Source: Methylobacterium durans (lineage in GTDB: Bacteria > Pseudomonadota > Alphaproteobacteria > Rhizobiales > Beijerinckiaceae). Taken from it: a DNA stretch of 64,000 nucleotides. Of the stretch, positions 1 through 64,000 are shown piece after piece (position 1 is the first letter of the stretch; every line of letters begins with the position of its first letter). Under the pieces are notes generated by a model, which was not told the DNA's origin, made no database searches, and saw nothing but the letters and a program-made list of their open reading frames with translations. Both the position numbers and the translations under genes were made by a program. The stretch is from positions 3,440,501-3,504,500 of the forward strand of contig NZ_CP029550.1 of the NCBI RefSeq assembly GCF_003173715.1. The letters run 5' to 3'.

Positions 1-2
1 CC

Positions 3-3000
3 GTTACCGGGACCAATGATGCTCCGACGATTGTTGCGGCTTCGACCACCGCGACGGGTGCCGTGACGGAGCGGGCCGACAAGTCCGCTACGGAGAACGC
101 ACTGCCGGATCACACGGCGGGTGGAACGATCAGCTTCGCGGATGTCGATACGCTCGACACACATAGCGCGACGGTCACGGCGCAGGGCTCTGGCTACTTG
201 GGAAGCCTCAGCCTCGGCTCCGTGGATCAGGCAGCCAACAGCGTCGGCTGGACCTTCTCGGTGGCTGACTCCGCATTGGATTTCCTGTCCGCCGGCGAGA
301 CTCGCGTCCAGAACTACACGGTAGCCGTTGCCGACGGAATCGGCGGTGTTGCCAACCAGACTATCACCGTCACAATTACCGGCGCGGCGGACAACACGCC
401 GCCGGTCGCCGTCGATGACAATTTTGCGAGCTCTTCAGTAAACACGGCGGGATTCGCCTATAACGGCGTCAATGGGCACTATTATAAATTCGTAGACGGC
501 GGGTACACCTTCGTTCAGGCCCAAGCGGCGGCGGCGGCGAGCGGCGGATATCTTGCAACCGTAACCTCTGCTCAGGAAAATAGCTTCATTTTCGGCCTCA
601 CCGCGGGCGCTTATGCTTGGCTTGGCGGAAGCGACGCTCAGACCGAGGGTCAATGGCGCTGGGTGTCTGGTCCTGAAACTGGGACTACCTTTTGGAACGG
701 TGGGACGAACGGAAGCGCCTCGTCGGGTCAGTTCGCAAACTGGCAGCCGGGCACCGAGCCGAACAACCTGGGCGACGAAGATCACGTCCATATGTGGCCG
801 GGCGGCTATTGGAACGACAGCAACGGGGCTAGTCCCTTCGGCTACGTGATTGAAATCGGCGGCCGCCTGGGAGACCCGGATCAAACTATAACGGTGTCCG
901 AAAACGGATCCGTCCAGATCGGCGCCCCGCGGTTGCTTGCAAACGACAGTGATGCTGATCAAGATCCGCTCGCGGTCACAGCCGTGAGTGTCCTTAGCGA
1001 GCGCGGGGCAACAGTCACGCTGTCCGGAGATGTCATCACCTATACGCCGCGGAACGCCGATGAACTGTCGGCTGGTCAGGTGGTCGAGGATACATTCACC
1101 TACACCATTTCGGATGGACAGGGCGGGAGCGATACGGCGACAGTTAGACTCACGGTTTCGGGCACAAATGACCTCCCCGTCATCGTGGCCTCTTCGACCA
1201 CCGCAACTGGCTCCGTGACGGAGCGGGCAGACGGTTCAGCAACGGAGAACACGCTTCCCAACCACACGGCAGACGGCACAATCCGTTTCACGGATGTCGA
1301 TACGCTCGACACTCACACGGCAATCGTCACGCCGGGAGCTTTGGGCTATCTGGGCAACCTTATCCTCCGACCCCTAGATCAAAGCAGTGACAGCGTCGGT
1401 TGGACTTTCTCGGTCGCGGACAGCGCGCTCGACAGCCTGGCGGCGGGTCAGACCAAGACGCAGAGCTACACGGTGACTGTGTCCGACGGGAAGGGCGGCG
1501 TCGCCAATCAGGCTGTTACCATCACCATCACCGGCACCAACGATGCGCCCACGATCGTCGCGTCTGGTTTGCCGACCACTCCTACAGGCCAAACCGTGCG
1601 AGCCACCACGCCAGCCACTCTGGCGGCTCTCACAATCGACGACGCTACCGGCGCCGTCTATGTTGCGGAACAGGACACCGTCGCTTCGCTGTTCAAGGTG
1701 ATCGCTGCCGATGGCAGCGTCACGCAGCTGACGGGAGACCTAACCGGAAATGCCTCCGGCAATGGCTTCTTTCCCTACGTTGCGACGGATATCGAGTTCT
1801 ATCAGGGGGGAATCTTCTGCATCACGTCTGATGGCCGGCTGGTTCGCTTCGATGTGGCCACCCGTACTACTCAGGTGCTCACCGCCCTTTCCGGCTTCAA
1901 CATCGAAAGTGGGATGGACATTACCAGCGATGGGCGTCTCCTCGCGACGGACGGCGCCGGGACCGCGAACAGATTGATCCAGTACGACATCGCGACTCGG
2001 ACGATCACGAAGACGATCCTGAACTTGCCGGGTGACAGCTACGGTGTTGAACACGACGATGTCACTGGTCGGACTTTCTTCAAAACATCGGGCGGCCAGT
2101 TGTTTGAGGCCGATCTGGCGAGCGGGACTTATAAGCTCGTCCGAAGCGATCTTTTCGGCAACAATTTCGAGATCGCTCCTGGTGCTGATCGTGCCTACAT
2201 CAAGGAGGGCAGCACCTGGGTCCAGGTTGATCTTGTGACTGGCAGTCGGACGACCGTAGCGACTGGCATCGCCGGCGACTCCGGCGAGGCGCAGTTTGGC
2301 CGGTCAAGTGACGGGACGGGATCGAGCCTCTTTGTCGCTTCAGGCACTCAAGTCGTAGAGGTGAAGTTCGGGTCTTCGTCGGTTAGCTCTGGAAAGATCG
2401 CAGAGATCGCGGATAAGGCGGTCGGAGAAAACACGACGATCCACACGGCCGGCGGCACAATTGCGTTCGCGGATGTGGACGCGATTGACGTCCACACGGC
2501 GGCTGTGACGCCGCAAGGCTCCGGATACCTTGGCTCGTTGACCCTCGGGACGGTCGATCAGCTCGGTGACAAGGTGAGTTGGACCTTCTCGGTGGCTGAC
2601 AGCACACTCGACAGCTTGGCGGCTGGTCAAACCAAAACGCAGAGCTATACGGTGGCCGTGTCGGACGGGCACGGTGGCATCACCGATCAAACCGTGACTG
2701 TCGCGATCACTGGCGCAAATGATGCACCCGTTGTCCTCGGCGCAGTGACGGGGGCCGCCACAGAAGATGGCGCAACAGTAACGCTTGACGCGCTGGCCAA
2801 CGCCTCGGACCCGGATAGCGGCACGAGCCTGTCAGTGGTTAACATACCGGCTAGCCTACCTGGCGGCGTGACTTACGATGCTGCAACGCACTCCTTTACA
2901 CTGAACCCAGCGCATGCGGCCTACCAGAGCTTGGCGGCAGGCGAAGCCGCGACTGTTAGCGTCGCCTACGGTGTGTCGGATGGCATCGCCGTCACGCCAG

Positions 3001-3752
3001 CCTCGGTCTCGTGGACTGTCGCGGGGACTAACGAGGCGCCGACTGGGCCTATCAAAGTTCTCGTAATCGGAGGTGCTAGCTCATCTGCCGTCAACGTGGC
3101 CGCACAACTGAACGACGATACCTATTTCGATTTCGACGCTACAGCGGTCTCAGCGAGCGCATACGCAAATTCAGCCGCCTGGGCAGATGTGCTGAAGAGC
3201 TATGAGGTTGTCGTTATGGGTGACAGCGGCTTCAATGACGCTTCACAACTAGCCAGCACGGGGGTCTTTGCTGCTGTTCGAGGGTTTGCAGAGCACGGCG
3301 GTGACGTGGTGACTACGGGCTGGTACGATTACGGGACTATGTCCTTGTCGGCGCAGAACAAGCTCGACGCAGACTACATCTCCCCGATCGGTATAGATAG
3401 CACTTACGCCTTTATTAGCGGTTCATACTCGTTCAACGTGGTCGATCCCAGTCACCCAATGATGAAATCAATTAGTAATTTCACAGAGTTGCCTCCTCCG
3501 AATAACTGGGAGATTCCGAGCTCGGTCGATCCAAGTGCCGTGGTTTTGGCGACTGTGGCAGGATCCAGCAGCAACGGGACCGCTAGCAATCCGGCGGTCC
3601 TCTACAGTGAGCCATCAAGCGAAACAAACCTCGTTTACATCGGGGGGCTGTATATGGCGAGTGCGCAGTACGGTCTTGATGACCTTCGCACTGGCGTTCA
3701 CGACAGGCTGCTCGAACAGGCTGTAGCCTGGGCTGCAGACCGAATTCTGTAG
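3..3752 (+). CDS. Giant VCBS-repeat / C-type-lectin surface protein (5' end outside window)
   Basis: The reading frame is open to the left edge, so this is the last 1249 residues of a larger protein. Three divergent VCBS-type repeats are visible (near nt 60-395, 1215-1550 and 2400-2730), each with a phrase like FxDVDxxDxHxAxVTP and ending in ITGxNDAP. A C-type-lectin-like domain lies between the first two (about nt 450-865), with the EPNN and WND calcium/sugar-binding motifs. After the second repeat comes a roughly 250-residue stretch resembling a beta-propeller, then the third repeat, a cadherin-like segment, and a C-terminal domain (from about nt 3050) resembling ThuA/GATase-like folds. VCBS proteins are usually secreted adhesins, often through type I secretion. 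I infer export by the system at 11.8-16.8 kb, but the C-terminus shows no decisive signal. The lectin domain suggests glycan binding. Confidence 0.85.
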   Translation, partial: VTGTNDAPTIVAASTTATGAVTERADKSATENALPDHTAGGTISFADVDTLDTHSATVTAQGSGYLGSLSLGSVDQAANSVGWTFSVADSALDFLSAGETRVQNYTVAVADGIGGVANQTITVTITGAADNTPPVAVDDNFASSSVNTAGFAYNGVNGHYYKFVDGGYTFVQAQAAAAASGGYLATVTSAQENSFIFGLTAGAYAWLGGSDAQTEGQWRWVSGPETGTTFWNGGTNGSASSGQFANWQPGTEPNNLGDEDHVHMWPGGYWNDSNGASPFGYVIEIGGRLGDPDQTITVSENGSVQIGAPRLLANDSDADQDPLAVTAVSVLSERGATVTLSGDVITYTPRNADELSAGQVVEDTFTYTISDGQGGSDTATVRLTVSGTNDLPVIVASSTTATGSVTERADGSATENTLPNHTADGTIRFTDVDTLDTHTAIVTPGALGYLGNLILRPLDQSSDSVGWTFSVADSALDSLAAGQTKTQSYTVTVSDGKGGVANQAVTITITGTNDAPTIVASGLPTTPTGQTVRATTPATLAALTIDDATGAVYVAEQDTVASLFKVIAADGSVTQLTGDLTGNASGNGFFPYVATDIEFYQGGIFCITSDGRLVRFDVATRTTQVLTALSGFNIESGMDITSDGRLLATDGAGTANRLIQYDIATRTITKTILNLPGDSYGVEHDDVTGRTFFKTSGGQLFEADLASGTYKLVRSDLFGNNFEIAPGADRAYIKEGSTWVQVDLVTGSRTTVATGIAGDSGEAQFGRSSDGTGSSLFVASGTQVVEVKFGSSSVSSGKIAEIADKAVGENTTIHTAGGTIAFADVDAIDVHTAAVTPQGSGYLGSLTLGTVDQLGDKVSWTFSVADSTLDSLAAGQTKTQSYTVAVSDGHGGITDQTVTVAITGANDAPVVLGAVTGAATEDGATVTLDALANASDPDSGTSLSVVNIPASLPGGVTYDAATHSFTLNPAHAAYQSLAAGEAATVSVAYGVSDGIAVTPASVSWTVAGTNEAPTGPIKVLVIGGASSSAVNVAAQLNDDTYFDFDATAVSASAYANSAAWADVLKSYEVVVMGDSGFNDASQLASTGVFAAVRGFAEHGGDVVTTGWYDYGTMSLSAQNKLDADYISPIGIDSTYAFISGSYSFNVVDPSHPMMKSISNFTELPPPNNWEIPSSVDPSAVVLATVAGSSSNGTASNPAVLYSEPSSETNLVYIGGLYMASAQYGLDDLRTGVHDRLLEQAVAWAADRIL

Positions 3753-5111: not shown

Positions 5112-5900
5112 TCAGAACGAGATCTTCTCGCTCATGTCGAGCCAGTCGAGATCGGCCGGTGCGGCGGGCGGCACGTAGGTCGGGGCGATCGCTGCCGGGC
5201 GCGCCGGAGCCGGTTCGGGCGGCGGCTCGAGCGTGACGGCGGCGGGTTCGGCCCGTGGCATCGATGCGCTGGAGAACGCGGCGGCGATCGCAAGTTCCAC
5301 CGTCAGCGCCGAGCGCGCGTACCAGTCGGCCGCCTTCGCGGCGAGGACGTCCGCTGGCCGACCCGCAGCCACGAAGAGAAGGGGCGCCGAATCGGGGGCC
5401 GAGAGCCCGGTGCGCGGCTGCGCGATCCCTTCTTCGACGATTTGGGTCGCGGCCGCCTGTAGAAGAGCGGCGCCAGCACTGGCCTTTCGCACCTGATCCG
5501 CGACGCCGCGCACCTCCTGCGTCAGCTTGCGGTCCGCAGTCGTGAAGGCGTGGCTGCCGGAGACGCCGACGAAGCTCGGGTCGAGGAGCACCGTGCAGGC
5601 CTCGTGCGCGTGCACGAAGGGGTAGACGCGGAGCCAGAACGGAACGTAGCCCGCCTGCCATTCGCCCTTGTCGTCGACGAAGCGATTCGTCTGGCCCGAC
5701 GTGTCGCCGAGATAGGCGACGGGGTGCCACTGCTCGCCCTCGCGGGCGAAGGCGATCGGGTACTCCCGCGCCGCGCGGAGGATCTCCGTCTGGATGAGCG
5801 GCACGAACACCCGCGCGCGGGCGAAGTGGAACGCCTTCGGGAACGACCAGTGCAGGTTCTGCAGGCGCTCCGGGGTCAGAGAGACGTGCGCGAAGCTCAT
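5112..5900 (-). CDS. SapC family protein (second of a tandem pair)
   Basis: The 262-residue protein starts with MSFAHVSLTPERLQNLHW and has the SapC-type core (FVPLIQTEI, AREYPIAF, WHPVAYLG, GYVPFWLRVYPF). The SapC family takes its name from a gene of the Campylobacter fetus S-layer locus; its biochemical role is not known. The frame can be extended upstream by 65 codons, but that part is Arg/Pro-rich shadow of the neighbour, while the chosen ATG overlaps the stop of the upstream sapC by 4 bases (ATGA), typical of translational coupling. The C-terminal 60 residues are Pro/Ala-rich and probably flexible. No signal peptide is seen. It lies next to a type I secretion locus. Confidence 0.8.
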   Translation of the reverse strand: MSFAHVSLTPERLQNLHWSFPKAFHFARARVFVPLIQTEILRAAREYPIAFAREGEQWHPVAYLGDTSGQTNRFVDDKGEWQAGYVPFWLRVYPFVHAHEACTVLLDPSFVGVSGSHAFTTADRKLTQEVRGVADQVRKASAGAALLQAAATQIVEEGIAQPRTGLSAPDSAPLLFVAAGRPADVLAAKAADWYARSALTVELAIAAAFSSASMPRAEPAAVTLEPPPEPAPARPAAIAPTYVPPAAPADLDWLDMSEKISF

Positions 5901-6634
5901 GCCGACTCTCCCGCCGGTGCCTGCGTTGCGGCCGCCTGAGCAGCCAATCGGCCGGTCCGGTGCTGATCGACCAGGCGCTGCATATTGAAGAGGGAGAGGT
6001 CGTGGAAGGTGACGAGTTCGGCGAACGGGAAGCCGTGCTGGGCGACGATTGTGGCGAGGCGCTCGCGCTGGGCCGGCGCGCGGGCGAGCACGCACAAGCC
6101 CCCGAACTCGATGCCGTCCTCGCCGATCTTGAGGCGGAGCGGCCAGTCCTCCAGGAGGCCCTCGGCGGCGAGCGCCTGCGTGTAGGCCGCCGTCCGGTCG
6201 CGATCGCTTGCGAAGACGCGCAGCGCGTTCATGCGATGCGCCGCTGATTCCGTGAAGCCGCCGCTGGCCGTGAAGACGGGGTTGCCGCTGCTCTCGGGGC
6301 GATGCGGGACCTCGTCGATGAGGACCGAGCTCTGTCCGTCCTCTCCGGCAACCGCGGTGACGGTCAGGGGGTAGGCTTCAACCAGAAGTGGTCGCGTGAG
6401 ACCGGGCCCGAGCAGGTGGTTGCTGCCGACGACGAGTGGCGACAGAGACAAGAGGGCGATGAATTCGAACTTGTCGCCGACGCGGCGCCAGGCCAGTGGG
6501 AAATGCCGCGCGAGTGACTTTGCCTCGACGGCCACAACAGGCGAAAACAGGATCTCTTCGAGGCCTTCATAATTGTGAAGATCGAAGATTATCTCGCTCG
6601 AACCCTGCTTCAGGGCTCTCAGGGATCGGTACAT
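5897..6634 (-). CDS. SapC family protein (first of a tandem pair)
   Basis: The 245-residue protein carries the SapC-like features PLAWRRVGDKFEFIALLSL, a glycine/leucine segment around SNHLLGPG, and PLLVEAYPLTV, all within the first 100 residues. It is a diverged paralogue of the gene that follows and overlaps it by ATGA at 5897-5900, so the two are almost certainly co-translated. The start ATG at 6634 is the first of the operon and is divergent from the 6873 gene across 238 bases of intergenic DNA. No export signal is visible. Two unlike SapC copies in one operon may mean the products act as a heteromer; this is inference. Confidence 0.75.
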   Translation of the reverse strand: MYRSLRALKQGSSEIIFDLHNYEGLEEILFSPVVAVEAKSLARHFPLAWRRVGDKFEFIALLSLSPLVVGSNHLLGPGLTRPLLVEAYPLTVTAVAGEDGQSSVLIDEVPHRPESSGNPVFTASGGFTESAAHRMNALRVFASDRDRTAAYTQALAAEGLLEDWPLRLKIGEDGIEFGGLCVLARAPAQRERLATIVAQHGFPFAELVTFHDLSLFNMQRLVDQHRTGRLAAQAAATQAPAGESA

Positions 6635-6791
6635 ACAGGCTTCCTGCTCAGTGCCGCGGGGGAACGACCTCGGCCTAACATTTGGCGCACAGCCGCCGAA
6701 TTCAGGTGTGTCGTCGGGGTTACAGCTTAAGGTTAACGATCCGAGGGCCGGGAACTCGGCACTTTTCGCGTACGAAATGGTTCAAATTGTC

Positions 6792-6822
6792 TTGACGCGC
6801 CGCAGCGAGCCATGGCTTAGAT
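6792..6822 (+). promoter_or_regulatory. Possible sigma-70-type promoter for the 6873-9535 genes
   Basis: TTGACG at 6792-6797 is followed after 18 bases by CTTAGA (6816-6821), about 50 bases before the 6873 start. The -35 box is good and the -10 box is weak. The site lies in the divergent intergenic region shared with the sapC pair. Confidence 0.35.
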
Positions 6823-6872
6823 CGGTACAGACAAGTGCCGGTTCAACCGGTCCTGCGTGAGGGGTTCTTTCA

Positions 6873-7802
6873 GTGAACAGCGTCGGCACGACGCGCGGGC
6901 AAGTGTCCGTGCGAGCGATGGATGTCGCTCGAGGCATGTTTGCGCTGCGCTATGTAGCAACGGCCATCCGTGGTGTCGCGCCTCGTGTGGTCATGACCGT
7001 CGATCCAGACCGGGCCGACGATGTTCGTATGCTCTCTAGTCCGGGCGTCGCGCCTGGTATGCTGCGCCAGCCCGGTGATCTCTGTGTCATCTCTGTTGAG
7101 CGCGATGCCACCGTTCTGATTACAACGATCGGTGAAGGGGCAGATCACCCGGAGGCCGTGACTCTGCAGCTCGATCGACTGGATCAGAGCGCGCCGAATG
7201 GTGGTCGTTCGTCGTCGAGACTTGCTCTGTCGGCTCCCGAGCCGGCGAACGTGCCGCCGGCCGCCGACGCGGGCGATCGCGCCATTCCTCTGCGCATCGC
7301 CGGGCATATCGAGCGCAAGGGCGACCTCTTCGTCACGGGTGGGGACTGGCTCGGTGATCCGGACGGCGAGGCGCGGATCGAGGGCTTCTCGGTGCAGTGG
7401 CCGCGCCGCCCCGCGAACGTCGACCTCTCGTATGGCTGCGCCCTTCTCGGGCTCGGGCGCCTGCCCGACGTGGTCGCCGGTGAGTTCGTCGGCACCCGGA
7501 TGCAGGCCCGCGCCATCAACGGCGTCACCTTCAAGCTGATCGGTGAGGACGCCGACGCCTACGCGCTGATCGTCGAGGCCGTCTTCAGCGATGGCTCGCA
7601 TTTCGGGCCGGCGCTGGCGCCGGTCGATCTGAAGGGTCCGACGGGCCGTGAGCACCTCGTCGGTCTCCGGCTTCAGCTCTCTGAAGTGAAGGCGAAGGCG
7701 CCGCGCTCGTCGAGCCGGGCGGTGGCGAGCAGCCGGCCTGAGCCGGCGCCGCGCAAGCCGGCCCGCATTTTCCGGGCGCCGCGTTCGTCGGCAGCCATCT
7801 GA
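6873..7802 (+). CDS. Unrecognised 309-residue protein encoded before the DUF4214 protein
   Basis: I recognise no family. The protein has no signal peptide or membrane segment. An N-terminal part (about 1-110) ends in a hydrophobic-acidic pattern. A central globular part (about 135-270) contains IPLRIAGHIERKGDLFV, a phrase giving GFSVQWP, and EFVGTRMQARAINGVTF. A basic tail (about 275-309) is rich in Arg, Ser, Pro and Lys. The start has GGGG about 13 bases upstream. It lies 38 bases before the DUF4214 gene on the same strand and divergent from the sapC pair, so I infer a role in making, folding or regulating the secreted protein. That is context only. Confidence 0.75.
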   Translation: MNSVGTTRGQVSVRAMDVARGMFALRYVATAIRGVAPRVVMTVDPDRADDVRMLSSPGVAPGMLRQPGDLCVISVERDATVLITTIGEGADHPEAVTLQLDRLDQSAPNGGRSSSRLALSAPEPANVPPAADAGDRAIPLRIAGHIERKGDLFVTGGDWLGDPDGEARIEGFSVQWPRRPANVDLSYGCALLGLGRLPDVVAGEFVGTRMQARAINGVTFKLIGEDADAYALIVEAVFSDGSHFGPALAPVDLKGPTGREHLVGLRLQLSEVKAKAPRSSSRAVASSRPEPAPRKPARIFRAPRSSAAI

Positions 7803-7840
7803 GACGCTCAAATTTCACTGATTGACTGTAGGGGGTTAAC

Positions 7841-9535
7841 GTGGCGGATCCGTATTCGCGGCCGGTAGAGCAGATCAAAGAGAACATCATCAAGAACCCG
7901 CAGGCCGAGGGTTTGAAGAACGCGCTTGAGCAGCTGCTCAAGACGCGGCCGAATACGAAAAACCCGGACGATCCGGTGACCGTCGACGTCCAGAATGTGG
8001 CGCCGGGCGCCCAGGTCGATCCGACCGTCGAGGTGGCCAACGTCGACGCCAGCCAAGGTGGCAACATCACCGGCGCGGGCAAGGCCCCGGTCCTCAACAT
8101 CTCCGGTTCGGGCACGGTGACCGGCAAGGTCGAGAGCCAGTTCGTCTCGCTCGACAGCGGCCAAGCCAACCTCACCTTCAACGGCGCGGGTCCGACCACG
8201 GTCGTGGCGGGCTCCGGTGACGCCAATCTCTCGCTGACGGGCGCCGGCAGCTCAACCATCGTCGCCGGTACGGGCGATCTGAAGATCCTTGGAGGCAATG
8301 CCGGTGTGACCGGCGATCTGACCCAGACCCAGCACGCCACCGTCAGCGCGGGCAGCGGCGACGACACGCTGACCCTTGGCACGGGCTCTTACAAGCTCGA
8401 CCTCGGCAGCGGCGACAACACCGTCAACCTGACGGGTTCGGGCTACAACATCTCCCTCGACGCCAAGGGCAACATCGTCCTGAAGAACGGCAGCGAGACC
8501 TCGACTCTGACGAATGTCGACGTCATCAAGCTCACCGATGGCTCGACGGTGGTGAATGCCTCCACGGTCGACGAGGCCATCATCAGCCGCATGTACGTCG
8601 CGGTGATGGACCGGACCGCCGATGCGAACGGTCTCTACTACTGGTGGGACCAGTACAACTCGGGCAAGCTGAGCCTCGAGCAGATCGGCGAGCAGTTCCT
8701 CGGCGCGCCGGAGGCGGGCTCGCACGGTCTGGGTTCCACGGTCACGAACGAGCAGTTCGTCGGCGCCGTGTACCAGAACCTGTTCGGCCGCACGGCTGAC
8801 GCCGGTGGTCTGGCCTACTGGTCGAACGAGCTGGCCACCGGTGCTCTGACCCGGACCGAGCTTCTTGTCGGCCTGACGTCAGCGTCGGAGGGCGTCAGTG
8901 CCACGGCGCAGACCACGCTCGTGGCGGATCGCCTGCCCACGGAGAACAGCCCCGTCTTCAAGGACATCGATCTGGCGGACGGGTCGCAGACGGTCGCCGG
9001 CGGTTCGGCCTTCGACACCGTGAACTTCGGGCTGAGCAAGGCTGAGTTCTCCACCGTGGTCGACGGTGGTCGCGTCCTGGTGTTCCACGCGAACTCGGGC
9101 ACGTCCACCACGATCGAGAACTCGGATTTCATCAAGTTCTCGGACGGCGTCCTCATCACCGCGCACACCACCGACGAGGCGGTCATCGGCCGGATGTACG
9201 AGGCGGTCATGGCGCGCGACGCCGATGCCAGCGGCCTTCAGTACTGGTGGGGTCAGCACGCCTCGGGCCAGAGCATGGAGAGCATCGCGCACGCCTTCAT
9301 GCAGAGCCCCGAGTTCCAGCAGGGTGCGGGCAAGCTCGCGGATCCGGCCTTCGTCGACCAGATCTACCACAACCTGTTCGGCCGCGAGGCCGACCAGGGC
9401 GGCCACGAGTACTGGGTCAAGGAGCTCAACGCCGGCATGTCCCGCGAGGACTTCGTGCTCCAGCTTGCCTCGTCCGGTGAGGGTGCGGACAAGACGGCCG
9501 ACTCGATCATCATCAACGGTCATCACGGTCATTAA
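7841..9535 (+). CDS. Secreted DUF4214 protein with glycine-rich repeats
   Basis: The 564-residue protein starts at GTG with a good ribosome site (TAGGGGG) 5 bases upstream. Residues 1-45 are charged. Residues about 75-230 are Gly/Ser/Thr/Asp-rich beta-repeats resembling RTX-adjacent or beta-roll segments (GAGSSTIVAGTGDL, SAGSGDDTLTLGTGSY). Four DUF4214 modules follow near residues 243, 303, 445 and 502, each with a signature like RMYxAVMxRxADxxGLxYWW or FVxxxYxNLFGRxAD. The end is NGHHGH. There is no Sec signal peptide. DUF4214 proteins are commonly type I secreted surface proteins, so this is the best candidate substrate of the transporter genes downstream. A clear terminator follows, suggesting it is made in quantity as a separate transcript. 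Confidence 0.9.
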   Translation: MADPYSRPVEQIKENIIKNPQAEGLKNALEQLLKTRPNTKNPDDPVTVDVQNVAPGAQVDPTVEVANVDASQGGNITGAGKAPVLNISGSGTVTGKVESQFVSLDSGQANLTFNGAGPTTVVAGSGDANLSLTGAGSSTIVAGTGDLKILGGNAGVTGDLTQTQHATVSAGSGDDTLTLGTGSYKLDLGSGDNTVNLTGSGYNISLDAKGNIVLKNGSETSTLTNVDVIKLTDGSTVVNASTVDEAIISRMYVAVMDRTADANGLYYWWDQYNSGKLSLEQIGEQFLGAPEAGSHGLGSTVTNEQFVGAVYQNLFGRTADAGGLAYWSNELATGALTRTELLVGLTSASEGVSATAQTTLVADRLPTENSPVFKDIDLADGSQTVAGGSAFDTVNFGLSKAEFSTVVDGGRVLVFHANSGTSTTIENSDFIKFSDGVLITAHTTDEAVIGRMYEAVMARDADASGLQYWWGQHASGQSMESIAHAFMQSPEFQQGAGKLADPAFVDQIYHNLFGREADQGGHEYWVKELNAGMSREDFVLQLASSGEGADKTADSIIINGHHGH

Positions 9536-9560
9536 GCGATCGTGCCAAGCGAGACGGAGG

Positions 9561-9585
9561 GGCCGGGCATCTCGCCCGGCCTTTT
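9561..9585 (+). terminator. Rho-independent terminator after the DUF4214 gene
   Basis: GGCCGGGC and GCCCGGCC form a perfect 8-bp stem around ATCTC, followed by TTTT. It starts 25 bases after the stop codon. Confidence 0.85.
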
Positions 9586-9721
9586 CGATTCGGATTGAGA
9601 CTTGGCGGTTATCTTCTCGCGTCGGTGGGCCTTATTTCGTCATCAAAGCCGGCTACCGCCTTTGCGAAGCGCCCCTTCGAAGTCGGAATGCGATGCGACA
9701 GGGTGGAGATGGTAGCGAGCG

Positions 9722-10363
9722 ATGGGCGCCCCCTTGCAGGCAGAAGCGGGAGAGAGATCGACGTCAGCGCGGACGGTGCTCCACGTCGGCTGCGGCGTGT
9801 TCGCGCCCGAGAAGCTGCATCCGGTCTTCCGGGACGGAAGCTGGCGCGAGCTCCGGATGGATCTCGACTCGCGCGTGAAGCCGGACATCGTCGGGACGAT
9901 CACCGATCTGTCCGTGTTCCGCGAAGGGAGCGTGGAGGCGATCTGGTCGTCGCACAACGTCGAGCACCTGTACGATCATGAGGTGCCGAAGGCGTTGGCC
10001 GAGTTCCGGCGGGTGCTGAAGCCGACGGGCTTTGCCCTGATCACCACGCCTGACATCGAGGCGGTGGCCGAGCTCGTGGTGCAGGGGAAGATCGACGAGG
10101 TCGCCTACGTCTCACCGGCGGGACCGATTACGGCCGTGGATATGCTGTTCGGGCATCGTCCCTCGCTGAAGGCAGGTAACGCCTTCATGGCGCATAAGAC
10201 TGCGTTCACGGCAAATCGCCTGGGACGCCTGCTCGTGGAGGCAGGCTTTGAGCGCGCCGTCATGCAGAAGGGATCGCATTTCGACCTGTGGGCGCTCGCC
10301 TTGATGCCGGAGTCGCAGCCGCCTGCGGCCCTGCTCGGCGAGGCTGTTGCAGCCAAGCCGTGA
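9722..10363 (+). CDS. SAM-dependent methyltransferase, class I (Methyltransf_11 type)
   Basis: The 213-residue protein has the SAM-binding motif I VLHVGCG (about residue 19), an acidic residue after the second strand in RMDLDSR, and motif LRVLKPTGFALITTPD typical of Methyltransf_11 enzymes. The phrase AIWSSHNVEHLYDHE matches the sugar/polysaccharide methyltransferases often found in glycan clusters. It lacks a membrane segment and is cytoplasmic. It lies 9 bases before a glycosyltransferase gene, so the pair probably modifies a glycan or glycosylates the secreted protein; the acceptor is unknown. Confidence 0.8.
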   Translation: MGAPLQAEAGERSTSARTVLHVGCGVFAPEKLHPVFRDGSWRELRMDLDSRVKPDIVGTITDLSVFREGSVEAIWSSHNVEHLYDHEVPKALAEFRRVLKPTGFALITTPDIEAVAELVVQGKIDEVAYVSPAGPITAVDMLFGHRPSLKAGNAFMAHKTAFTANRLGRLLVEAGFERAVMQKGSHFDLWALALMPESQPPAALLGEAVAAKP

Positions 10364-10372
10364 CCCTGTCGG

Positions 10373-11560
10373 ATGGCGCTGCGCGTTCTCCTCGTTCACC
10401 AGTCCTTTCCGTCGCAGCTGATCGCTGTGCTGGAGGCGCTCGAGCGGCGCGATGACGTCGAGCTCGCTGGGATCGGGATGAATCCGTATGCGCGGAGGGG
10501 ACTGCGCTATAGGCAGTATTCGCCTGTGCCGGTGGCGCAGACGGGCGATATCGTCATCGATGATCTGGCGTCGAAGGCGACGCTTGCGGCGGCAGCGGCG
10601 GCCGCGGCGCGGGCGCTCAGCTACGATGGCTTCGTGCCCGATGTCATCGTGGCGCATCCCGGATGGGGCGAGGCCCTCTACCTGAAGGATCTATTCCCGC
10701 GCGCGAAGCTCGTTTGCTACTGCGAGTATTATTACCTGCGCTCCGGCGGGGAGGTGAACTTCGACCCGGAGTTCCCGCCAGCCCCTCCGGAGGTGCTGCA
10801 CCGGATGCGGGCGCGCAATGCCATCACGCTGGCAAGCCTTGAGGATGCCGACGTGTGCGTGGCGCCGACGCCGTGGCAGAAGTCCACCTTCCCGGCGATG
10901 TTGCACCCGAAGATTGAGGTCTTCCATGAGGGCGTGGAGGTCCCGCCCGCTGACAACAGGGCAACTGACCGCACGGCGTCCGGAGGGCCATCCGTCAGTT
11001 TCGTGGCCCGGCACCTCGAGCCGCACCGTGGGTTCCACACCTTCATGCGGGCTGTTCCCCGCTTGCTTCGGGCAGATCCCTCAATCCAGGTCTCCGTAAT
11101 TGGTTCTGATCGAGGCGGATACGGAGCTCCTCCGTCCGACGGGCGCACTTGGAAATCCGTGTTGTTGGAGGAGCTCAACGGTTCGATCGATGAGACGCGC
11201 GTGCGGTTTCTCGGATCGGTCGACCGCAGACGCTATCTCGACGCGCTGCGACACTCTGATGTGCACGTGTATCTGACGTATCCGTTCGTTCTCTCGTGGT
11301 CAGCCCTTGAGACTATGGGTGCCAGTAAAGCGATGGTTGTGTCGGATACGGCGCCGGTCCGAGACTATTTCACCGATGAGTGCGCTGCGGTGATTGATTT
11401 CTTCGACTCTCGCGCCCTGGCTACGCGTATCCTGAGCCTGCTCCGCAATGCCAAAATACGGACAAGCCTCGGGGGACATGCCCGTGAGGCTTTTCACGAC
11501 TATGAGCTCACGCGAGACCATGGACGTGCTGCGTGGGAGCGACTGGTAACGTCGTTTTAG
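10373..11560 (+). CDS. Glycosyltransferase family 4 protein
   Basis: The 395-residue protein has a two-domain GT-B layout. The N-terminal domain starts with LRVLLVHQSFPSQL and includes the DVIVAHPGWGEALYLKDLFP and CEYYY features of the Glyco_trans_4-like N-terminal family. The C-terminal Rossmann domain contains VSFVARHLEPHRGFHTFMRA, the VSVIGSDRGGYG strand, and a nucleotide-sugar-binding region around YPFVLSWSALETMGASKAMV. No membrane segment is seen. It follows the methyltransferase by 9 bases and precedes the transporter pair. Donor and acceptor cannot be told from sequence. Confidence 0.85.
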   Translation: MALRVLLVHQSFPSQLIAVLEALERRDDVELAGIGMNPYARRGLRYRQYSPVPVAQTGDIVIDDLASKATLAAAAAAAARALSYDGFVPDVIVAHPGWGEALYLKDLFPRAKLVCYCEYYYLRSGGEVNFDPEFPPAPPEVLHRMRARNAITLASLEDADVCVAPTPWQKSTFPAMLHPKIEVFHEGVEVPPADNRATDRTASGGPSVSFVARHLEPHRGFHTFMRAVPRLLRADPSIQVSVIGSDRGGYGAPPSDGRTWKSVLLEELNGSIDETRVRFLGSVDRRRYLDALRHSDVHVYLTYPFVLSWSALETMGASKAMVVSDTAPVRDYFTDECAAVIDFFDSRALATRILSLLRNAKIRTSLGGHAREAFHDYELTRDHGRAAWERLVTSF

Positions 11561-11832
11561 TGCGTTTCGCGGTGCGCGGATGATCCGTTGTGAGGCGGGC
11601 GGGCACCAGGGTTCTTGGAACTGAGGTAAGCTTAACGTTGACCTGTGGTGGCTCCTTGATGATGCCGCAAACCACTGGTCTAGCCGGTTGCGTTACGATG
11701 CGGCAGGAGTGCGACCGACTGAGCGTGTCCGGTCGTCTCCGCGTCGGCCCTTCCGAGCGGTGGCATAACCGCGGGCGCGGCATCGTTGGCGGAGATCGCT
11801 GCCCGTTGAGCGCGGGGTAGGAGTGTCGGGCA

Positions 11833-13590
11833 ATGGGAGGGCAGGCGAAACGGGCGCGCGATGCCGACGCGGAGACTCCGCTCGACCGCGGCATTCGGCT
11901 GATCCGGCCCGGCGTCCTGCACCTGTGTGTGCTCAGCCTCGTGATCAATCTGCTGAGCTTCTCGACCGTGCTGTACTCGATGGAGATTTTCAATCGGGTC
12001 TTGTCGACGAGGAGCGTCAACACGCTGATTGGATTGACGGTGATCTTTTTGCTCGGGACGGGACTTGCTGCGGCCCTCGTAGCGTTGCGGGCGTCCGCTT
12101 TGCGGAAGATGGGGATCGCCCTCAACGAGGAGGTCTCTGCGCCCCTCTACGACCTCGTCTATTCCGAGACGCTTGAGACGCGGCGCTACGATACCATGGG
12201 TGCCTTCCGCGATCTCGAAACGGTGCGAACATTTCTATCGGGCCAAGGACTGGCCCAGCTCCTCGACCTCCCGTGGATCCCGATCTACGTATTGGTCGCC
12301 TTTGTCATGCATGTCTGGCTCGGTTTGGCGCTTCTCGCATCTGTTGTTGTGGTACTGCTGCTTGCGGCGTTGAACGAGGTTTTCAACCGCTCGAACTTGA
12401 AGCAGGCCGGCATCTTCGCAGAGCAGAGTCAGAAGCTTCTGGCGACGGCAACGCGCGAGGCCGAGACCTTGCATGTGATGGCGATGGTGTCGGGATTTCG
12501 CGAGCGGTGGCTCGCAGCTCACCACCACGCGACTGCTTGGCAGCTGACGGCGGCTCATCTCTCCAAAGGTATCTCGCTCGTTCTAAAATTTTGGCAGTCG
12601 TTCACCTCGTTCGGTCTGGTTGCGCTGGGCTGTTATCTAGCCATTGGCGGCCACGTCTCCCCCGGTGCCATGTTTGCCGTGATGTTCATTGGTGGGGCGT
12701 GTGTGGGGGTTGTCCAATCGGCCGCGAGCCAATGGCCCTCGTTTTTGCGGGCACGTCAGGCTTTTGGCCGGCTGCAGGCGCTGTTCCGGGCCGCTGAGGC
12801 TGCGCCGCAGCGCCTGGCGCTGCCCAGGCCCAACGGCCACGTTGAGGTGAGTGGGCTTGCCCTGACCGCACCGGGATCCAGCCGCTTCATCCTCAGTCAG
12901 GTCAGCTTCGAACTGCCCGCTGGCTCAGCCACAGCGGTGGTGGGCCCGAGCGGGGCGGGCAAGTCGAGCCTAGTGCGGGCGCTGGTGGGCATCTGGGCGC
13001 CAGCGCTCGGCAGTGTGCGCATCGATGGGTCCGAGTTGCAGCACTGGGATGCGGACGCGCTTGGGCAGCACCTCGGCTACCTGCCGCAGAATGTGGAGCT
13101 TTTGTCCGGCACGATCGCGCAGAACATCGCGCGGTTCGGCGCTGTGGATGACGAGGCGGTGCTGGAAGCGGCGAAGCTTGCTGGCGTGCACGAGGTGATC
13201 CAGCAGCTGCCGCAGGGCTACAGCACCGAGGTGGGGGAGGGCGGCAGCGCCTTGTCGGGAGGTCAGCGCCAGCGGATCGGATTGGCGCGCGCGATCTACG
13301 GCAACCCGTCTCTCGTGGTGCTGGATGAGCCGAACTCGAACCTCGATGCGGTGGGCGAGGCGGCTCTGGCCGAGGCTTTGCAAGCACTGACCAAGCGAGG
13401 CACGACCTGCGTGCTGATCACGCACAAGGCCAACATCCTGACGCTGGTGGACTACATCCTGGTTCTGAAGGACGGGACCGTGTCGACCTTCGGCCCGCGT
13501 GACGAGGTGCTGTCGGGTCAGGGTGCTGGGCGCAGCTCCGCGTCCGCGGCGCCTCAGCAGCTCACCACACGCCACGCCGCCGTCGGGTAA
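11833..13590 (+). CDS. Type I secretion ABC transporter, PrtD type (copy 1)
   Basis: The 585-residue protein has an N-terminal membrane domain (about residues 25-320, several hydrophobic segments including a PWIPIYVLVAFVMHVWLG stretch typical of PrtD/AprD/HasD proteins) and a C-terminal ATPase. Walker A is GPSGAGKS (about 371), the signature LSGGQRQR (about 474) and Walker B LVVLDEP (about 494). It would sit in the inner membrane and drive one-step export through an HlyD adaptor and a TolC-like pore. The gene ends 5 bases before a second transporter whose ATPase half is nearly identical, while the membrane halves differ. Confidence 0.93.
   Translation: MGGQAKRARDADAETPLDRGIRLIRPGVLHLCVLSLVINLLSFSTVLYSMEIFNRVLSTRSVNTLIGLTVIFLLGTGLAAALVALRASALRKMGIALNEEVSAPLYDLVYSETLETRRYDTMGAFRDLETVRTFLSGQGLAQLLDLPWIPIYVLVAFVMHVWLGLALLASVVVVLLLAALNEVFNRSNLKQAGIFAEQSQKLLATATREAETLHVMAMVSGFRERWLAAHHHATAWQLTAAHLSKGISLVLKFWQSFTSFGLVALGCYLAIGGHVSPGAMFAVMFIGGACVGVVQSAASQWPSFLRARQAFGRLQALFRAAEAAPQRLALPRPNGHVEVSGLALTAPGSSRFILSQVSFELPAGSATAVVGPSGAGKSSLVRALVGIWAPALGSVRIDGSELQHWDADALGQHLGYLPQNVELLSGTIAQNIARFGAVDDEAVLEAAKLAGVHEVIQQLPQGYSTEVGEGGSALSGGQRQRIGLARAIYGNPSLVVLDEPNSNLDAVGEAALAEALQALTKRGTTCVLITHKANILTLVDYILVLKDGTVSTFGPRDEVLSGQGAGRSSASAAPQQLTTRHAAVG
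12841..13590 (+). repeat. Direct repeat, copy 1: shared ATPase module of the two transporters
   Basis: This 750-base segment is repeated at 14697-15446 (offset 1856). The first about 100 bases and the last about 370 bases are identical or nearly so; the middle has scattered, mostly silent changes. Weaker similarity extends left to about 12740. The protein products differ at only a handful of positions across the ATPase. Confidence 0.9.
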
Positions 13591-13595
13591 GAAGC

Positions 13596-15446
13596 ATGGC
13601 ACGGCACCTCACAGTAGCGATGCAGCGCGCCGTCAGTGCTGCACCTTGGAAGCACTTGAGCGGGAACTTGGCCCGAGTGCTTCCTAGTGCGGAGTCGGGC
13701 AGGCTGACCCTCGGCTCCTTTCTGAGCGAGAGGACCGCACTGAATCGCGCGCTGAGCCGGCAGCGTCTCGCGTTCGTGCACGCGGCGTTGATCAGCCTCT
13801 TCCTGAGCGTGTCTGTGCTCACGGGCAGCATCTTCGTCGAGCAGGTCAATGACCGCGTGATGGTGCACAAGCAGCTCGTCACGCTCGTGATCCTGTTTGG
13901 TGTCCTTGTCCTTCAGCTTGCGATTGCCGGCGTTCTTACGAAATTCCGCGATGCGATCCTTGAACGAGTGGGGCTTCAGCTCGATGCAGAACTGCGCCCC
14001 AATTTGTTCAACTGGCGGGTGCGCGCCGCGGTCGGATTGCGCCTACCTCATGCGCAGCAGAGCCTAACTGACCTCGATGTACTTCGCGGCTTTATCTCAG
14101 GCAGCGGTGTTGCAGCGATCTATGATGCGATCCCGATCCCGATCTATCTCGCCGCTTGCTTCGCGATGCATGTGTGGCTCGGTTGGTTCGCAGCGGGTGG
14201 TCTCGCTCTTGTGTTCATGACCGCTGTAGTCCAGACGCGAACTCAATCGAGACGAGCTGCGCAACTTAGTGGCGCGAACGTTCACAATGATGCCCTGACA
14301 GACACCTTCAAAAATATCGAGGCTGTTCAGGCTCTTGGCATGCGAGTGTCATTCCGCAGGCGCTGGACGTCTGCGTACCGCCGGTTCCTCAGTGAGCAAG
14401 CCGCACTTGAAGACGAGGCCGCTCTTTTCTCGTCCGTTACGCGTGCTTTGACTGGAGCGTTCAGCGGGCTCTGTATGGCACTCGGCGCGTATCTCGCAAT
14501 TCGGGGTGAGATCTCGCCCGGTAACGTGATTGGGGTGATGCTCATCGCCGGCAAGTTGCTTCAGCCTCTCGGAACTCTTTCGGCAGAGTGGCCCTCCTTT
14601 TTGCGAGCGCGTCAGGCTTATGGGCGGTTGCAGGCGCTGTTCCGGGCTGCTGAGGCTGCACCGCGACGTCTGGCTCTGCCGCGGCCGGACGGCCACGTTG
14701 AGGTGAGTGGGCTTGCCCTGACCGCACCGGGATCCAGCCGCTTCATCCTCAGTCAGGTCAGCTTCGAGCTGCCCGCTGGCTCAGCCACAGCGGTGGTGGG
14801 CCCGAGCGGGGCGGGCAAGTCGAGCTTGGTTCGGGCGCTCGTCGGCATCTGGGCGCCAGCGCTCGGCAGTGTGCGCATTGATGGATCCGAGTTGCAGCAC
14901 TGGGACGCGGATGCCTTAGGTCAGCACCTTGGCTACCTGCCACAGAACGTCGAGCTCCTGTCCGGCACGATCGCACAGAACATCGCGCGGTTCGGCGCTG
15001 TCGATGATGAGGCGGTGCTCGAGGCGGCCAAGCTCGCCGGTGTGCACGAGGTGATCCAGCAGCTGCCGCAAGGCTACAGCACCGAGGTGGGGGAGGGCGG
15101 CAGCGCCTTGTCGGGAGGTCAGCGCCAGCGGATCGGATTGGCGCGCGCGATCTACGGCAACCCGTCTCTCGTGGTGCTGGATGAGCCGAACTCGAACCTC
15201 GATGCGGTGGGCGAGGCGGCTCTGGCCGAGGCTTTGCAAGCACTGACCAAGCGAGGCACGACCTGCGTGCTGATCACGCACAAGGCCAACATCCTGACGC
15301 TGGTGGACTACATCCTGGTTCTGAAGGACGGGACCGTGTCGACCTTCGGCCCGCGTGACGAGGTGCTGTCGGGTCAGGGTGCTGGGCGCAGCACCGCGAC
15401 CAATGCCCCTCAGCAGCTCACCACACGCCACGCCGCCGTCGGGTAA
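13596..15446 (+). CDS. Type I secretion ABC transporter, PrtD type (copy 2)
   Basis: The 616-residue protein has about 30 more N-terminal residues than copy 1, then a PrtD-type membrane domain (about 60-350, with a segment like IYDAIPIPIYLAACFAMHVW) and an ATPase with Walker A at about 402, LSGGQ at about 505 and Walker B at about 525. The membrane domain is clearly diverged from copy 1, but the ATPase and the C-terminal tail (QQLTTRHAAVG) are almost the same. Two such genes in tandem before one adaptor suggest either a heterodimeric transporter or two exporters with different substrates sharing one adaptor. Confidence 0.93.
   Translation: MARHLTVAMQRAVSAAPWKHLSGNLARVLPSAESGRLTLGSFLSERTALNRALSRQRLAFVHAALISLFLSVSVLTGSIFVEQVNDRVMVHKQLVTLVILFGVLVLQLAIAGVLTKFRDAILERVGLQLDAELRPNLFNWRVRAAVGLRLPHAQQSLTDLDVLRGFISGSGVAAIYDAIPIPIYLAACFAMHVWLGWFAAGGLALVFMTAVVQTRTQSRRAAQLSGANVHNDALTDTFKNIEAVQALGMRVSFRRRWTSAYRRFLSEQAALEDEAALFSSVTRALTGAFSGLCMALGAYLAIRGEISPGNVIGVMLIAGKLLQPLGTLSAEWPSFLRARQAYGRLQALFRAAEAAPRRLALPRPDGHVEVSGLALTAPGSSRFILSQVSFELPAGSATAVVGPSGAGKSSLVRALVGIWAPALGSVRIDGSELQHWDADALGQHLGYLPQNVELLSGTIAQNIARFGAVDDEAVLEAAKLAGVHEVIQQLPQGYSTEVGEGGSALSGGQRQRIGLARAIYGNPSLVVLDEPNSNLDAVGEAALAEALQALTKRGTTCVLITHKANILTLVDYILVLKDGTVSTFGPRDEVLSGQGAGRSTATNAPQQLTTRHAAVG
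14697..15446 (+). repeat. Direct repeat, copy 2: shared ATPase module of the two transporters
   Basis: Second copy of the segment at 12841-13590. Differences cluster at about 14826-15070; the last about 370 bases match copy 1 except for a few changes near 15390-15410. Confidence 0.9.
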
Positions 15447-15458
15447 GAGGGTGCGCTA

Positions 15459-16781
15459 ATGACGACCGCGCTCACCATTCAGCCTCCTCCCATCCGGACG
15501 GATTGGCGGAGGCCTGTGCTGCTAGCCTATCTCGTGATCCTTATTGCCTTCGGCGGAGGAGCAGGTTGGGCGGCATTCGCCAAGCTCGAGAGTGCGGCCA
15601 TCGCCTCTGGGGTTGTTATGTCTCAGTCGAACAAGAAGACCGTTCAACATTTAGAAGGCGGGATCGTTCGTGAGATCCTCGTGCGCGATGGAGACCAGGT
15701 GCAGGAGGGGCAAACTCTTCTACGCCTCGACGACACGCAAGCTCGCGCCTCGCTGGAAACGACGAGGAGCCAGCAGGCGATTGACCGTATTCGGGAAGCG
15801 CGACTGCTTGCTGAGCGGGATCAGACCGACAGGATTGTCCTCCCGGACAGCGTAACGTCCAGGGCCCATGAACCCGCGATCGCGCGTGCCATTCAAGATG
15901 AGAAGGGAAACCTCCGCGAGCGAGCTGTGTACTTGCGCTCTCAAACCGATGTGCTCAATGCCAAGATCGTCCAAACTGAGCAGGAAGTGCGGGCGCTTAG
16001 AAACGATGCTGATTCGACCAAGCAGCAACTCGTCACAATCGACCAAGAACTAAGCGGTCTCCGGCAGCTGCTCGCGAAGCAGCTAGTTCCTGTCTCGCGA
16101 GTGGCAGCACTGGAACGTGAGCGCATTCGCCTGCAGGGGGCACTCGACCGCGCGATTTCAGATGCCAAGAAGGGCGAGCAAGCGATCGACGAGACGAAGC
16201 TTACGATCGTCCAGACTCAAAAGCAGTTCCTGCAGCAGGTTTCTTCGGACATCATCGATGTTCGCAAGAGTCTCGCCGAGTTAGCCGAGAAAGAAAATGT
16301 CGCGAAGGACATATTGAGCCGCGTCGAGGTCCGGGCGCCACGCACCGGAATTGTCCAGAGTATGAAGGTATTTACCATCGGCGCCGTGCTGCGTCCTGGC
16401 GACACGATGCTAGAGATTGCTCCCACAGGTGATCAATTGACGGTGGGCATCCAGATCTCGCCGGCCGATGTAGATTCTGTTGCCGAGGGACTGAGGGCAG
16501 AGGTGCGTTTCCCAACATATCACTCCCGTCGCGTGCCCATCATGCTGGGCCAGGTTCGGTCGGTCTCGTACGACCGCGTCACTGACCCACAGAACCCGCA
16601 GAACAGTTACTTTCAAGGTGAAGTTGTCGTCGACGCAGCCAGCGTTCCGGCCGAAATCAAGGATCGGCTGAAGCCGGGCATGCCCGCAGACGTCATTGTG
16701 ACCACGGGTGAGCAGACCCCATTGGACTACTTCTTGGGCCCGCTATTCGACCGAGTGGCGCACGGAATGCGGGAAAAGTGA
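15459..16781 (+). CDS. HlyD-family type I secretion periplasmic adaptor
   Basis: The 440-residue protein has a short cytoplasmic N-terminus, one membrane segment (about 20-42), a lipoyl half (KTVQHLEGGIVREILVRDGD, a hallmark of PrtE/HlyD adaptors), a long coiled coil rich in Gln, Glu and Arg (about 95-290), the second lipoyl half (VRAPRTGIVQSMKVFTIGAV) and a C-terminal beta-barrel ending in LKPGMPADVIVTTGEQTPLDY. It bridges the inner-membrane ABC protein and an outer-membrane TolC-like channel. The start lies 12 bases after the second ABC gene, so the three form one operon. No channel gene is in the window. Confidence 0.93.
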   Translation: MTTALTIQPPPIRTDWRRPVLLAYLVILIAFGGGAGWAAFAKLESAAIASGVVMSQSNKKTVQHLEGGIVREILVRDGDQVQEGQTLLRLDDTQARASLETTRSQQAIDRIREARLLAERDQTDRIVLPDSVTSRAHEPAIARAIQDEKGNLRERAVYLRSQTDVLNAKIVQTEQEVRALRNDADSTKQQLVTIDQELSGLRQLLAKQLVPVSRVAALERERIRLQGALDRAISDAKKGEQAIDETKLTIVQTQKQFLQQVSSDIIDVRKSLAELAEKENVAKDILSRVEVRAPRTGIVQSMKVFTIGAVLRPGDTMLEIAPTGDQLTVGIQISPADVDSVAEGLRAEVRFPTYHSRRVPIMLGQVRSVSYDRVTDPQNPQNSYFQGEVVVDAASVPAEIKDRLKPGMPADVIVTTGEQTPLDYFLGPLFDRVAHGMREK

Positions 16782-63426: not shown

Positions 63427-64000
63427 TCAGACCAGCTGCCCGCCCTGCTCGATCTGCCCGAGGTGAACACTGTGCGCCTCAGCGCTGTCGGTGAGCAGCA
63501 CAGCCAGATCCGCCCGCGAGGTTCCGCGATTGAGTAGGTCGGTCCAATAGGCACGTCCCCCTGCATCCGCGTGGCGGCCCAACGCGTTCACGTAGAGGGC
63601 GTCCACGTAGTCGCTGTTGCTCATGCTGCCGTACTTCGACACGTTCTCTGGCGTCCCGAGGAAGGCCCGCGCGAGGTCACTCAATGAGCCGCCACGCTTG
63701 AGCTGGTCCGTCCAGAACTGCAGGCCGCCGGCATCGGGCGCGCGGTTGAGCATGGTGTAGTAGAGCCGCGCCACGTCGGAGGCCTGCTTGTCGGGCACGA
63801 AGAGGCCAGCGTCGAAGGCAGGCCTCAAGCTGCTCACGTGCTCGTCCGAGAAGACGAAGCCGAGGGCCACGTCGATGCGGGTCGCGCCGCGGTCGAGCTG
63901 GCCTGCCCAGTAGTCGAGACCGGCGCTGTCGGCCTGACGGTGCAGGGTTGCCTGGTAGAGCTGCTGGACGAAGTCGCGGTTGCCGAGCGCGCCCGCTCGC
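63427..64000 (-). CDS. DUF4214-domain protein, C-terminal part (start outside window)
   Basis: The minus-strand frame is open to the right edge. Three DUF4214 modules are visible: FVQQLYQATLHRQADSAGLD and YWAGQLDRG; VARLYYTMLNRAPDAGGLQF; and YVDALYVNALGRHADAGGRA and YWTDLLNRG. It ends EAHSVHLGQIEQGGQLV. Like the 7841 gene product it is probably a type I secreted surface protein. GC-rich. Confidence 0.85.
   Translation of the reverse strand, partial: RAGALGNRDFVQQLYQATLHRQADSAGLDYWAGQLDRGATRIDVALGFVFSDEHVSSLRPAFDAGLFVPDKQASDVARLYYTMLNRAPDAGGLQFWTDQLKRGGSLSDLARAFLGTPENVSKYGSMSNSDYVDALYVNALGRHADAGGRAYWTDLLNRGTSRADLAVLLTDSAEAHSVHLGQIEQGGQLV

Follow-up and report, generated by a model that had tools for sequence, protein, structure and literature searches.

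A type I secretion unit of Methylobacterium durans with a ChW-like protein family, a SapC gene pair and glycosyltransferase genes

Genes and features of the locus

The locus described here lies in a 64,000-nucleotide stretch of the Methylobacterium durans genome (bases 3,440,501-3,504,500 of a single contig of 6.79 Mb), called the window below and numbered from its own first base. On the + strand it contains, in order, the genes for an unnamed 309-residue protein designated P309, a DUF4214 protein, a methyltransferase, a GT4 glycosyltransferase, two PrtD-type ATP-binding cassette (ABC) exporters and an HlyD-type adaptor. A pair of SapC-family genes lies on the - strand and is transcribed in the direction opposite to P309 and the genes after it. 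An earlier reading made from the letters alone (the sequence-only reading) had named the SapC, DUF4214, methyltransferase, GT4, PrtD ABC and HlyD genes, and Pfam and NCBIfam scans confirmed that all of them are real. The view that the locus is one unit, a type I exporter plus accessory genes dedicated to it, is well supported.

The P309 gene (6873..7802, +) encodes a protein in which a signal peptide is not apparent by eye. Its AlphaFold2 model (mean predicted local distance difference test score, pLDDT, 83.6; predicted template modelling score 0.53) shows two confident all-beta domains, at residues ~10-102 and 135-272; the linker and the basic C-terminal tail are loose.

Directly after P309 lies the gene for the predicted type I substrate (7841..9535, +; 564 residues). 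It matches PF13946 (DUF4214) in four stretches at 6.7e-53 and 177 bits, contains 0 Cys, 12% Gly, 5.5% basic residues and GSGD stretches, and is devoid of a Sec signal as judged by eye. Type I substrates are as a class Cys-free, glycine-rich and poor in basic residues; by composition the DUF4214 protein is a typical member, and its secretion is predicted. Directly 3' of this gene, folding identified a strong terminator- or attenuator-like hairpin (9555..9587, +), with -32.7 kcal/mol and a z score of -4.96 for positions 9545-9600. A consensus terminator scan missed this hairpin and found no excess of terminators (3 found vs 3.2 expected), and a consensus sigma-70 search found no promoter. The S-adenosylmethionine (SAM) methyltransferase gene follows (9722..10363, +; PF08241 at 8.4e-9, 36 bits vs a cut-off of 21), and then the GT4 glycosyltransferase gene (10373..11560, +), whose domain matches include PF12000 (3.3e-48), PF13692 (8.7e-12) and PF00534.

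Both ABC genes (exporter 1, 11833..13590, +; exporter 2, 13596..15446, +) belong to the type I class, scoring 603 and 584 bits with TIGR01842 against a cut-off of 510. The gene for the HlyD-type periplasmic adaptor (15459..16781, +) scores 380 bits with TIGR01843 (cut-off 209). The 3' halves of the two ABC genes are near-identical, with 94% DNA identity over 859 columns, and the 5' halves differ. At a related locus (L074) the 3' halves are 100% identical over 767 bases within the locus, and between species the identity is ~74-78%. Since these halves are alike within species and diverged between them, gene conversion appears to keep the ATPase halves alike, which suggests that the two ABC proteins are a working pair. 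At one related locus (L042) a single ABC gene precedes HlyD. The outer-membrane OEP family has no match in the window; genome-wide there are seven matches, at 2.32, 4.61 and 5.62 Mb.

Both SapC genes pass the PF07277 cut-off of 28.9 bits, with 83 and 74 bits. SapC2 (5897..6634, -; 245 residues; 1.5e-20) is followed by SapC1, the second gene of the pair (5112..5900, -; 2.9e-23, from a scan that used a longer start). The likely start of SapC1 is the ATG at 5900, which overlaps the SapC2 stop as ATGA and gives a protein of 262 rather than 327 residues; the pair is therefore translationally coupled. Coupling had been claimed by the sequence-only reading and stands, with the correction that the pair occupies the - strand and diverges from the + strand unit. 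A search with SapC2 returned 17 proteins including SapC2 itself, and its nearest named relative, from M. oxalidis, is 82% identical. The AlphaFold2 model of SapC2 (pLDDT 81.9) had no Foldseek match in the PDB at E ≤ 0.001, so that no solved fold was matched. SapC1 of the window has the C-terminal tail DLDWLDMSEKISF, and SapC1 proteins of relatives end in a short acidic-hydrophobic tail such as LDDSSLFSIDEF, VDFLDYGDNLTF or DLDWLDMSEKISF. This tail and the basic tail of P309 may form a docking pair.

Conservation of P309 and its neighbors

P309 is a real family without a name, distantly ChW-like in sequence, and its conservation rules out a chance reading frame. A first search gave 15 homologues, of which the four with an organism name are all from Methylobacterium; the nearest named relative (M. 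oxalidis) is 91% identical. A profile grown from these homologues (A1) found P309 in 50 of 397 genomes of the taxonomic family, an under-count that at first missed loci L174 and L187. With a broader profile of 31 rows (A3) the family was found in 54 of the 397 genomes, covering 15 of 43 genera, and in 7 of 385 genomes of the class, the source genome included. The same profile retrieved 104 proteins from a protein database, some with a precomputed PF07538 label. When scanned singly, 57 of 79 relatives matched the ChW model (PF07538) at E ≤ 0.01 (best 9.3e-7); window P309 matched no Pfam family at E ≤ 0.01 or 0.1 and missed PF07538. Residues G21, R26, Y27, G150, W159, E170 and G207 (window numbering) are invariant in 31 diverse members, and R294, R298, F300 and R301 of the basic tail are kept in at least 90% of 79 members (alignment A4). 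The sequence-only reading had proposed the protein at 6873 as a new component, and the breadth of its homologue family bears this out. An alphaproteobacterial Ku protein (P0123; PF02735) carries a ChW domain and is a weak match to the P309 profile.

P309 is commonly paired with a substrate gene. Across 62 loci, a count in which one genome appears twice, the open reading frame (ORF) less than 300 bp downstream of P309 carries DUF4214 in 13 and at least two repeats-in-toxin (RTX) motifs in 30, for a total of 43. Judged by composition alone (at most 1 Cys, few K/R, rich in G/N/D/S/T), the downstream ORF fits in 43 of 54 loci, and the background across those loci is 54 of 1282 ORFs of at least 250 residues. 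Two RTX-type downstream ORFs scanned with Pfam both matched PF00353 (E 6e-40 and 3e-53). The paired substrates are mostly short, largely ~320-680 residues, and diverse. A hairpin of -18 kcal/mol or stronger follows the substrate gene at 37 of 44 loci and follows P309 itself at 0 of the 17 listed out of 62. From the pairing and the 3' hairpin, P309 and substrate therefore seem to be one short, separately ended unit, which suggests that P309 is a stoichiometric partner rather than an enzyme.

At two loci from two other families (L143 and L144), the P309 region forms the C-terminal part of a GT2+GT4 glycosyltransferase. The fused frames have 1197 and 1334 codons, are followed directly by methyltransferase and GT4 genes, and match the ChW model at 30.9 bits (L143) and 21.4 bits (L144), where the cut-off is 22. 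The fusion links P309 with glycosyl transfer and suggests a cytosolic location for it. Three loci of another family (L140-L142) carry a large glycosyltransferase, P309 and a GT4 enzyme consecutively, and an exporter lies a few kb off.

Neighborhoods of P309 were compared at 59 loci, 53 from the family and 6 from the class, over at most ~9.5 kb on each side, using profiles grown from the window proteins. The window itself was not counted, and the P309 matches of G014, G167 and G197, one of G154, L174, L187 and others new with A3 were left out. GT4 was found at 44 loci, a large GT2/GT4 enzyme at 39, the methyltransferase at 36, a type I ABC gene at 32, HlyD at 27 and the SapC pair at 23. These counts are lower bounds, as contigs ended early and several exporters reached the edge of the stretch; with wider flanks, the HlyD partner lay just outside the original stretch at some loci. 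By genus (n = 18), the figures are 16 for GT4, 15 for the large glycosyltransferase, 13 for ABC, 12 each for methyltransferase and HlyD, and 7 for SapC.

Control loci with GT4 and without P309 were hand-picked (18 of 68 matches). L174 and L187 were dropped from these on turning out to have P309, methyltransferase, large glycosyltransferase and exporter, without SapC. Among the remaining 16 there was no methyltransferase, large glycosyltransferase or SapC gene, and 4 had an ABC gene. Fisher tests of P309 against control loci gave p 9e-7 for the large glycosyltransferase (39/59 vs 0/16), 5e-6 for the methyltransferase (36/59 vs 0/16), 0.002 for SapC and 0.05 for ABC, all of which are too small given that the loci are related and the counts not independent.

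The SapC pair takes two main positions. Among 25 loci with the pair, including the window and L042, it is divergent and at most 0.7 kb before P309 in 12, as in the window, and on the same strand ~1 kb after P309, behind the substrate gene, in 11. The exceptions are L098, with the pair at 3.6 kb, and L117, with two opposed SapC genes at 8 kb. A chance neighborhood is unlikely given this recurrence in two layouts. The sequence-only reading would have failed if SapC pairs and DUF4214-transporter sets were not neighbors in related genomes; the SapC pair, the DUF4214 protein and the PrtD/HlyD exporter are in fact conserved neighbors there.

Family-wide, 11 of 21 places matched by SapC2 fall at P309 loci. 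For the other ten, eight stretches show SapC by profile, and six of these eight hold ABC and HlyD genes. Two of the six (L208 in G109 and L209 in G131) also have the large GT2/GT4 enzyme, together with SapC, PrtD ABC and HlyD, and represent a P309-less form of the unit. P309 is absent from either stretch and is carried on other contigs of both genomes; L208 additionally has an RTX/DUF4214-type ORF and a methyltransferase gene. That SapC accompanies exporters in the family even without P309 favors an accessory function for it, either in export or in the proposed modification of the substrate, and counters the simple view that SapC is not an exporter gene.

Outside the family, SapC is not a general mark of exporters. 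Twenty SapC loci of other families were hand-picked from 65 matches (3 of the 65 being the source genome's own), and none had an ABC, HlyD, P309, GT4, methyltransferase or large glycosyltransferase gene within ~5 kb; an exporter was found at 0 of the 5 loci that could be extended to ~10 kb. A pooled Pfam scan of 97 of the 118 ORFs around these 20 SapC genes showed no recurring partner among the 25 families listed of 115, with ORFs chosen by length and SapC itself recovered in only 13 members. The third SapC gene of the source genome (L128; 2,016,000-2,035,900) lies next to a 2015-codon ORF and another ORF. By their look, we take the latter to resemble a radical SAM protein and the former to carry an LEPRVLL motif.

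The surroundings of the unit include other candidate surface proteins. Positions 1-3752, just before the SapC pair, hold the end of a 3057-codon open frame that starts at genome base 3,435,079. By eye, RTX-like repeats stand at the beginning of this frame, and the part within the window has cadherin, Big_9 and C-type lectin domains; we read it as a giant surface protein, which may be a further substrate. At the right edge (~63472-64000 onward, - strand) DUF4214 matches lie within a 4757-codon open frame that leaves the window. The source genome has 93 DUF4214 matches, several of them near 3.41-3.50 Mb. The region 3' of the unit (17214-51057) is a mosaic polysaccharide region. It contains SIS/CBS protein, cytidylyltransferase, pyruvyl transferase-like and GT4 genes, interspersed with integrase/transposase genes (33194, 36846), a P450-like ORF (46986) and an HNH protein (49825), and its GC content drops to 46-51% in places.

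Proposed mechanism and rival explanations

The fusion, the pairing and the neighbors are best explained by type I secretion through a dedicated unit, with glycosylation of the substrate in the cytosol before export and P309 as the substrate adaptor; we give this proposal an even chance. P309 and its DUF4214/RTX substrate would be made together from a short unit closed by the hairpin. The beta domains of P309 would then bind the unfolded substrate or its glycan and present it to the glycosyltransferase(s), and the methyltransferase would modify the sugar or the protein, so that the substrate is perhaps methylated. Export of the product to the cell surface would run through PrtD/HlyD together with a TolC-type protein whose gene lies elsewhere. 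The coupled SapC pair probably assists either the exporter or the modification. A fuller version, held somewhat more tentatively and at a little below even chance, describes a new glycosylation-coupled form of type I secretion. Here P309 would be a ChW-like cytosolic adaptor made with each substrate, sometimes fused to a glycosyltransferase, that recruits a GT4/GT2 complex and the methyltransferase before export, and a SapC heterodimer would be a further subunit.

Several observations weigh against glycosylation through P309. The large glycosyltransferase was not found in the source genome (best match 43 bits), and 13 of the 59 P309 loci have neither GT4 nor the large enzyme in the fetched stretch, several of these being on short contigs. 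A second copy of P309 in genus g15 (L083, L085, L087 and L088) has an exporter and no glycosyltransferase or substrate. A DUF4214/RTX ORF directly downstream is missing at 19 of the 62 P309 loci, including all six from other families. The GT4 type also stands alone (12 of 18 sampled). Exporter, SapC and large glycosyltransferase occur without P309 at L208 and L209, and P309 is therefore not essential to every such set.

The main rival casts P309 as a chaperone or pilot for secretion, which would hold the RTX/DUF4214 substrate in an unfolded state and hand it to the exporter; the glycosyltransferases would produce a separate glycan that the substrate binds once exported. The pairing of P309 with a substrate and its own 3' hairpin, the conserved basic tail and the lack of an apparent signal peptide would all suit such a protein, as would the second copies in g15 that adjoin an exporter in the absence of a glycosyltransferase. 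The chaperone role does not account for the fusion of P309 to a GT2/GT4 enzyme, nor for P309 loci being richer in glycosyltransferases (44 and 39 of 59) than in exporters (32 of 59), although the latter point is weak as exporters often lie at the stretch edge. We consider this explanation unlikely.

The sequence-only reading had proposed an S-layer locus, in which the DUF4214 protein would build an array on the cell surface, anchored to, or decorated with, the polysaccharide made by the following 3-deoxy-D-manno-octulosonic acid (KDO) and glycosyltransferase genes, as in the Campylobacter fetus sap and Caulobacter rsa systems. SapC-family genes do adjoin the type I exporter in the window and in relatives, with or without P309 (six of eight P309-less loci of the family). 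In C. fetus itself a SapC-family gene stands beside the exporter, in the sapCDEF operon, where SapD, SapE and SapF have exporter roles. Two further parallels are that the glycosylation regions next to C. fetus sap are believed to act in lipopolysaccharide synthesis and Sap binding (PMC4943207), and that Caulobacter RsaA is anchored to the O-antigen (PMC11026435). By analogy, those C. fetus glycan regions are a possible parallel to the present locus. Against this, the kdsA/kpsF-like genes of the window lie 9.4 and 10.3 kb from P309, and such genes were found at 0 of the 59 related loci, where the ~9.5 kb limit would just miss the window's own, and in 0 of 20 further flanking stretches from 12 genomes. 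Only KDO-type genes were counted as a polysaccharide link. As KDO genes are not conserved neighbors, the following polysaccharide cluster looks unlinked to the unit. Decoration with a glycan fits the recurring glycosyltransferases, and the attribution of that glycan to the following cluster is not supported. The substrates paired with P309 are diverse and mostly short, no exporter was found beside SapC genes of other families (0/20 within ~5 kb, 0/5 to ~10 kb), and no OEP gene stands in the window where an S-layer operon could carry its outer-membrane gene, as the sap operon does with SapF. An S-layer locus is accordingly rated distinctly unlikely, with the association of SapC and exporter supported and the KDO link not supported.

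That P309 is itself exported as an extracellular glycan-binding partner of the substrate would fit its distant relation to the clostridial ChW proteins, which are thought to be extracellular and glycan-binding, and is very improbable given its lack of an apparent signal sequence, its fusion to glycosyltransferases in two families and a conserved basic tail that is unlike a type I secretion signal.

If glycosylation before export is correct, it brings a modification step into a route of secretion that is usually regarded as transporting unmodified chains. P309 constitutes a new protein family, spread over 15 genera of a single bacterial family and a few further genomes outside it, and its position next to an RTX or DUF4214 gene provides a signature for finding such exported proteins. 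The SapC family gains a genomic context and, should the proposal hold, a first testable role. A search of the open-access literature found no paper on this unit, on ChW proteins with type I secretion or on sugar addition as a dedicated step ahead of type I export, and no role or function for PF07277, which is weak evidence of absence.

Comparison with known systems

The unit resembles C. fetus sap in that a gene of the SapC family lies in a locus for a surface protein and glycan genes are near (PMC4943207). It differs in its coupled SapC pair, in the type of substrate and in having P309 and the methyltransferase/GT4 genes inside the unit. We know of no SapC, P309 or methyltransferase in the Caulobacter rsa set, where RsaDEF is a type I exporter. 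The likeness to rsa lies in a surface protein with a dedicated export set, and the difference in the size of RsaA, which has 1026 residues (PMC11026435).

Compared with ChW proteins, P309 relatives match PF07538 in 57 of 79 cases, whereas window P309 misses the model and has no apparent signal peptide, and the family has an extra N-terminal beta domain and fusions to glycosyltransferases. The PrtD ABC (TIGR01842) and HlyD (TIGR01843) genes and the adjoining Cys-free RTX/DUF4214 protein are shared with other PrtD/HlyD type I systems. The unit differs from these in its two tandem ABC genes with near-identical 3' halves, in the added P309, SapC pair, GT4 and methyltransferase, and in that an outer-membrane gene was not found in the window.

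To our knowledge, P309 and SapC have no counterpart in the systems that glycosylate adhesins in the cytosol, such as the serine-rich repeat proteins with GtfA/GtfB, HMW1C and AIDA/TibC. Those systems use accessory Sec or type V/two-partner routes rather than type I. What they have in common with the unit described here is a dedicated glycosyltransferase adjoining the exported protein and its exporter.

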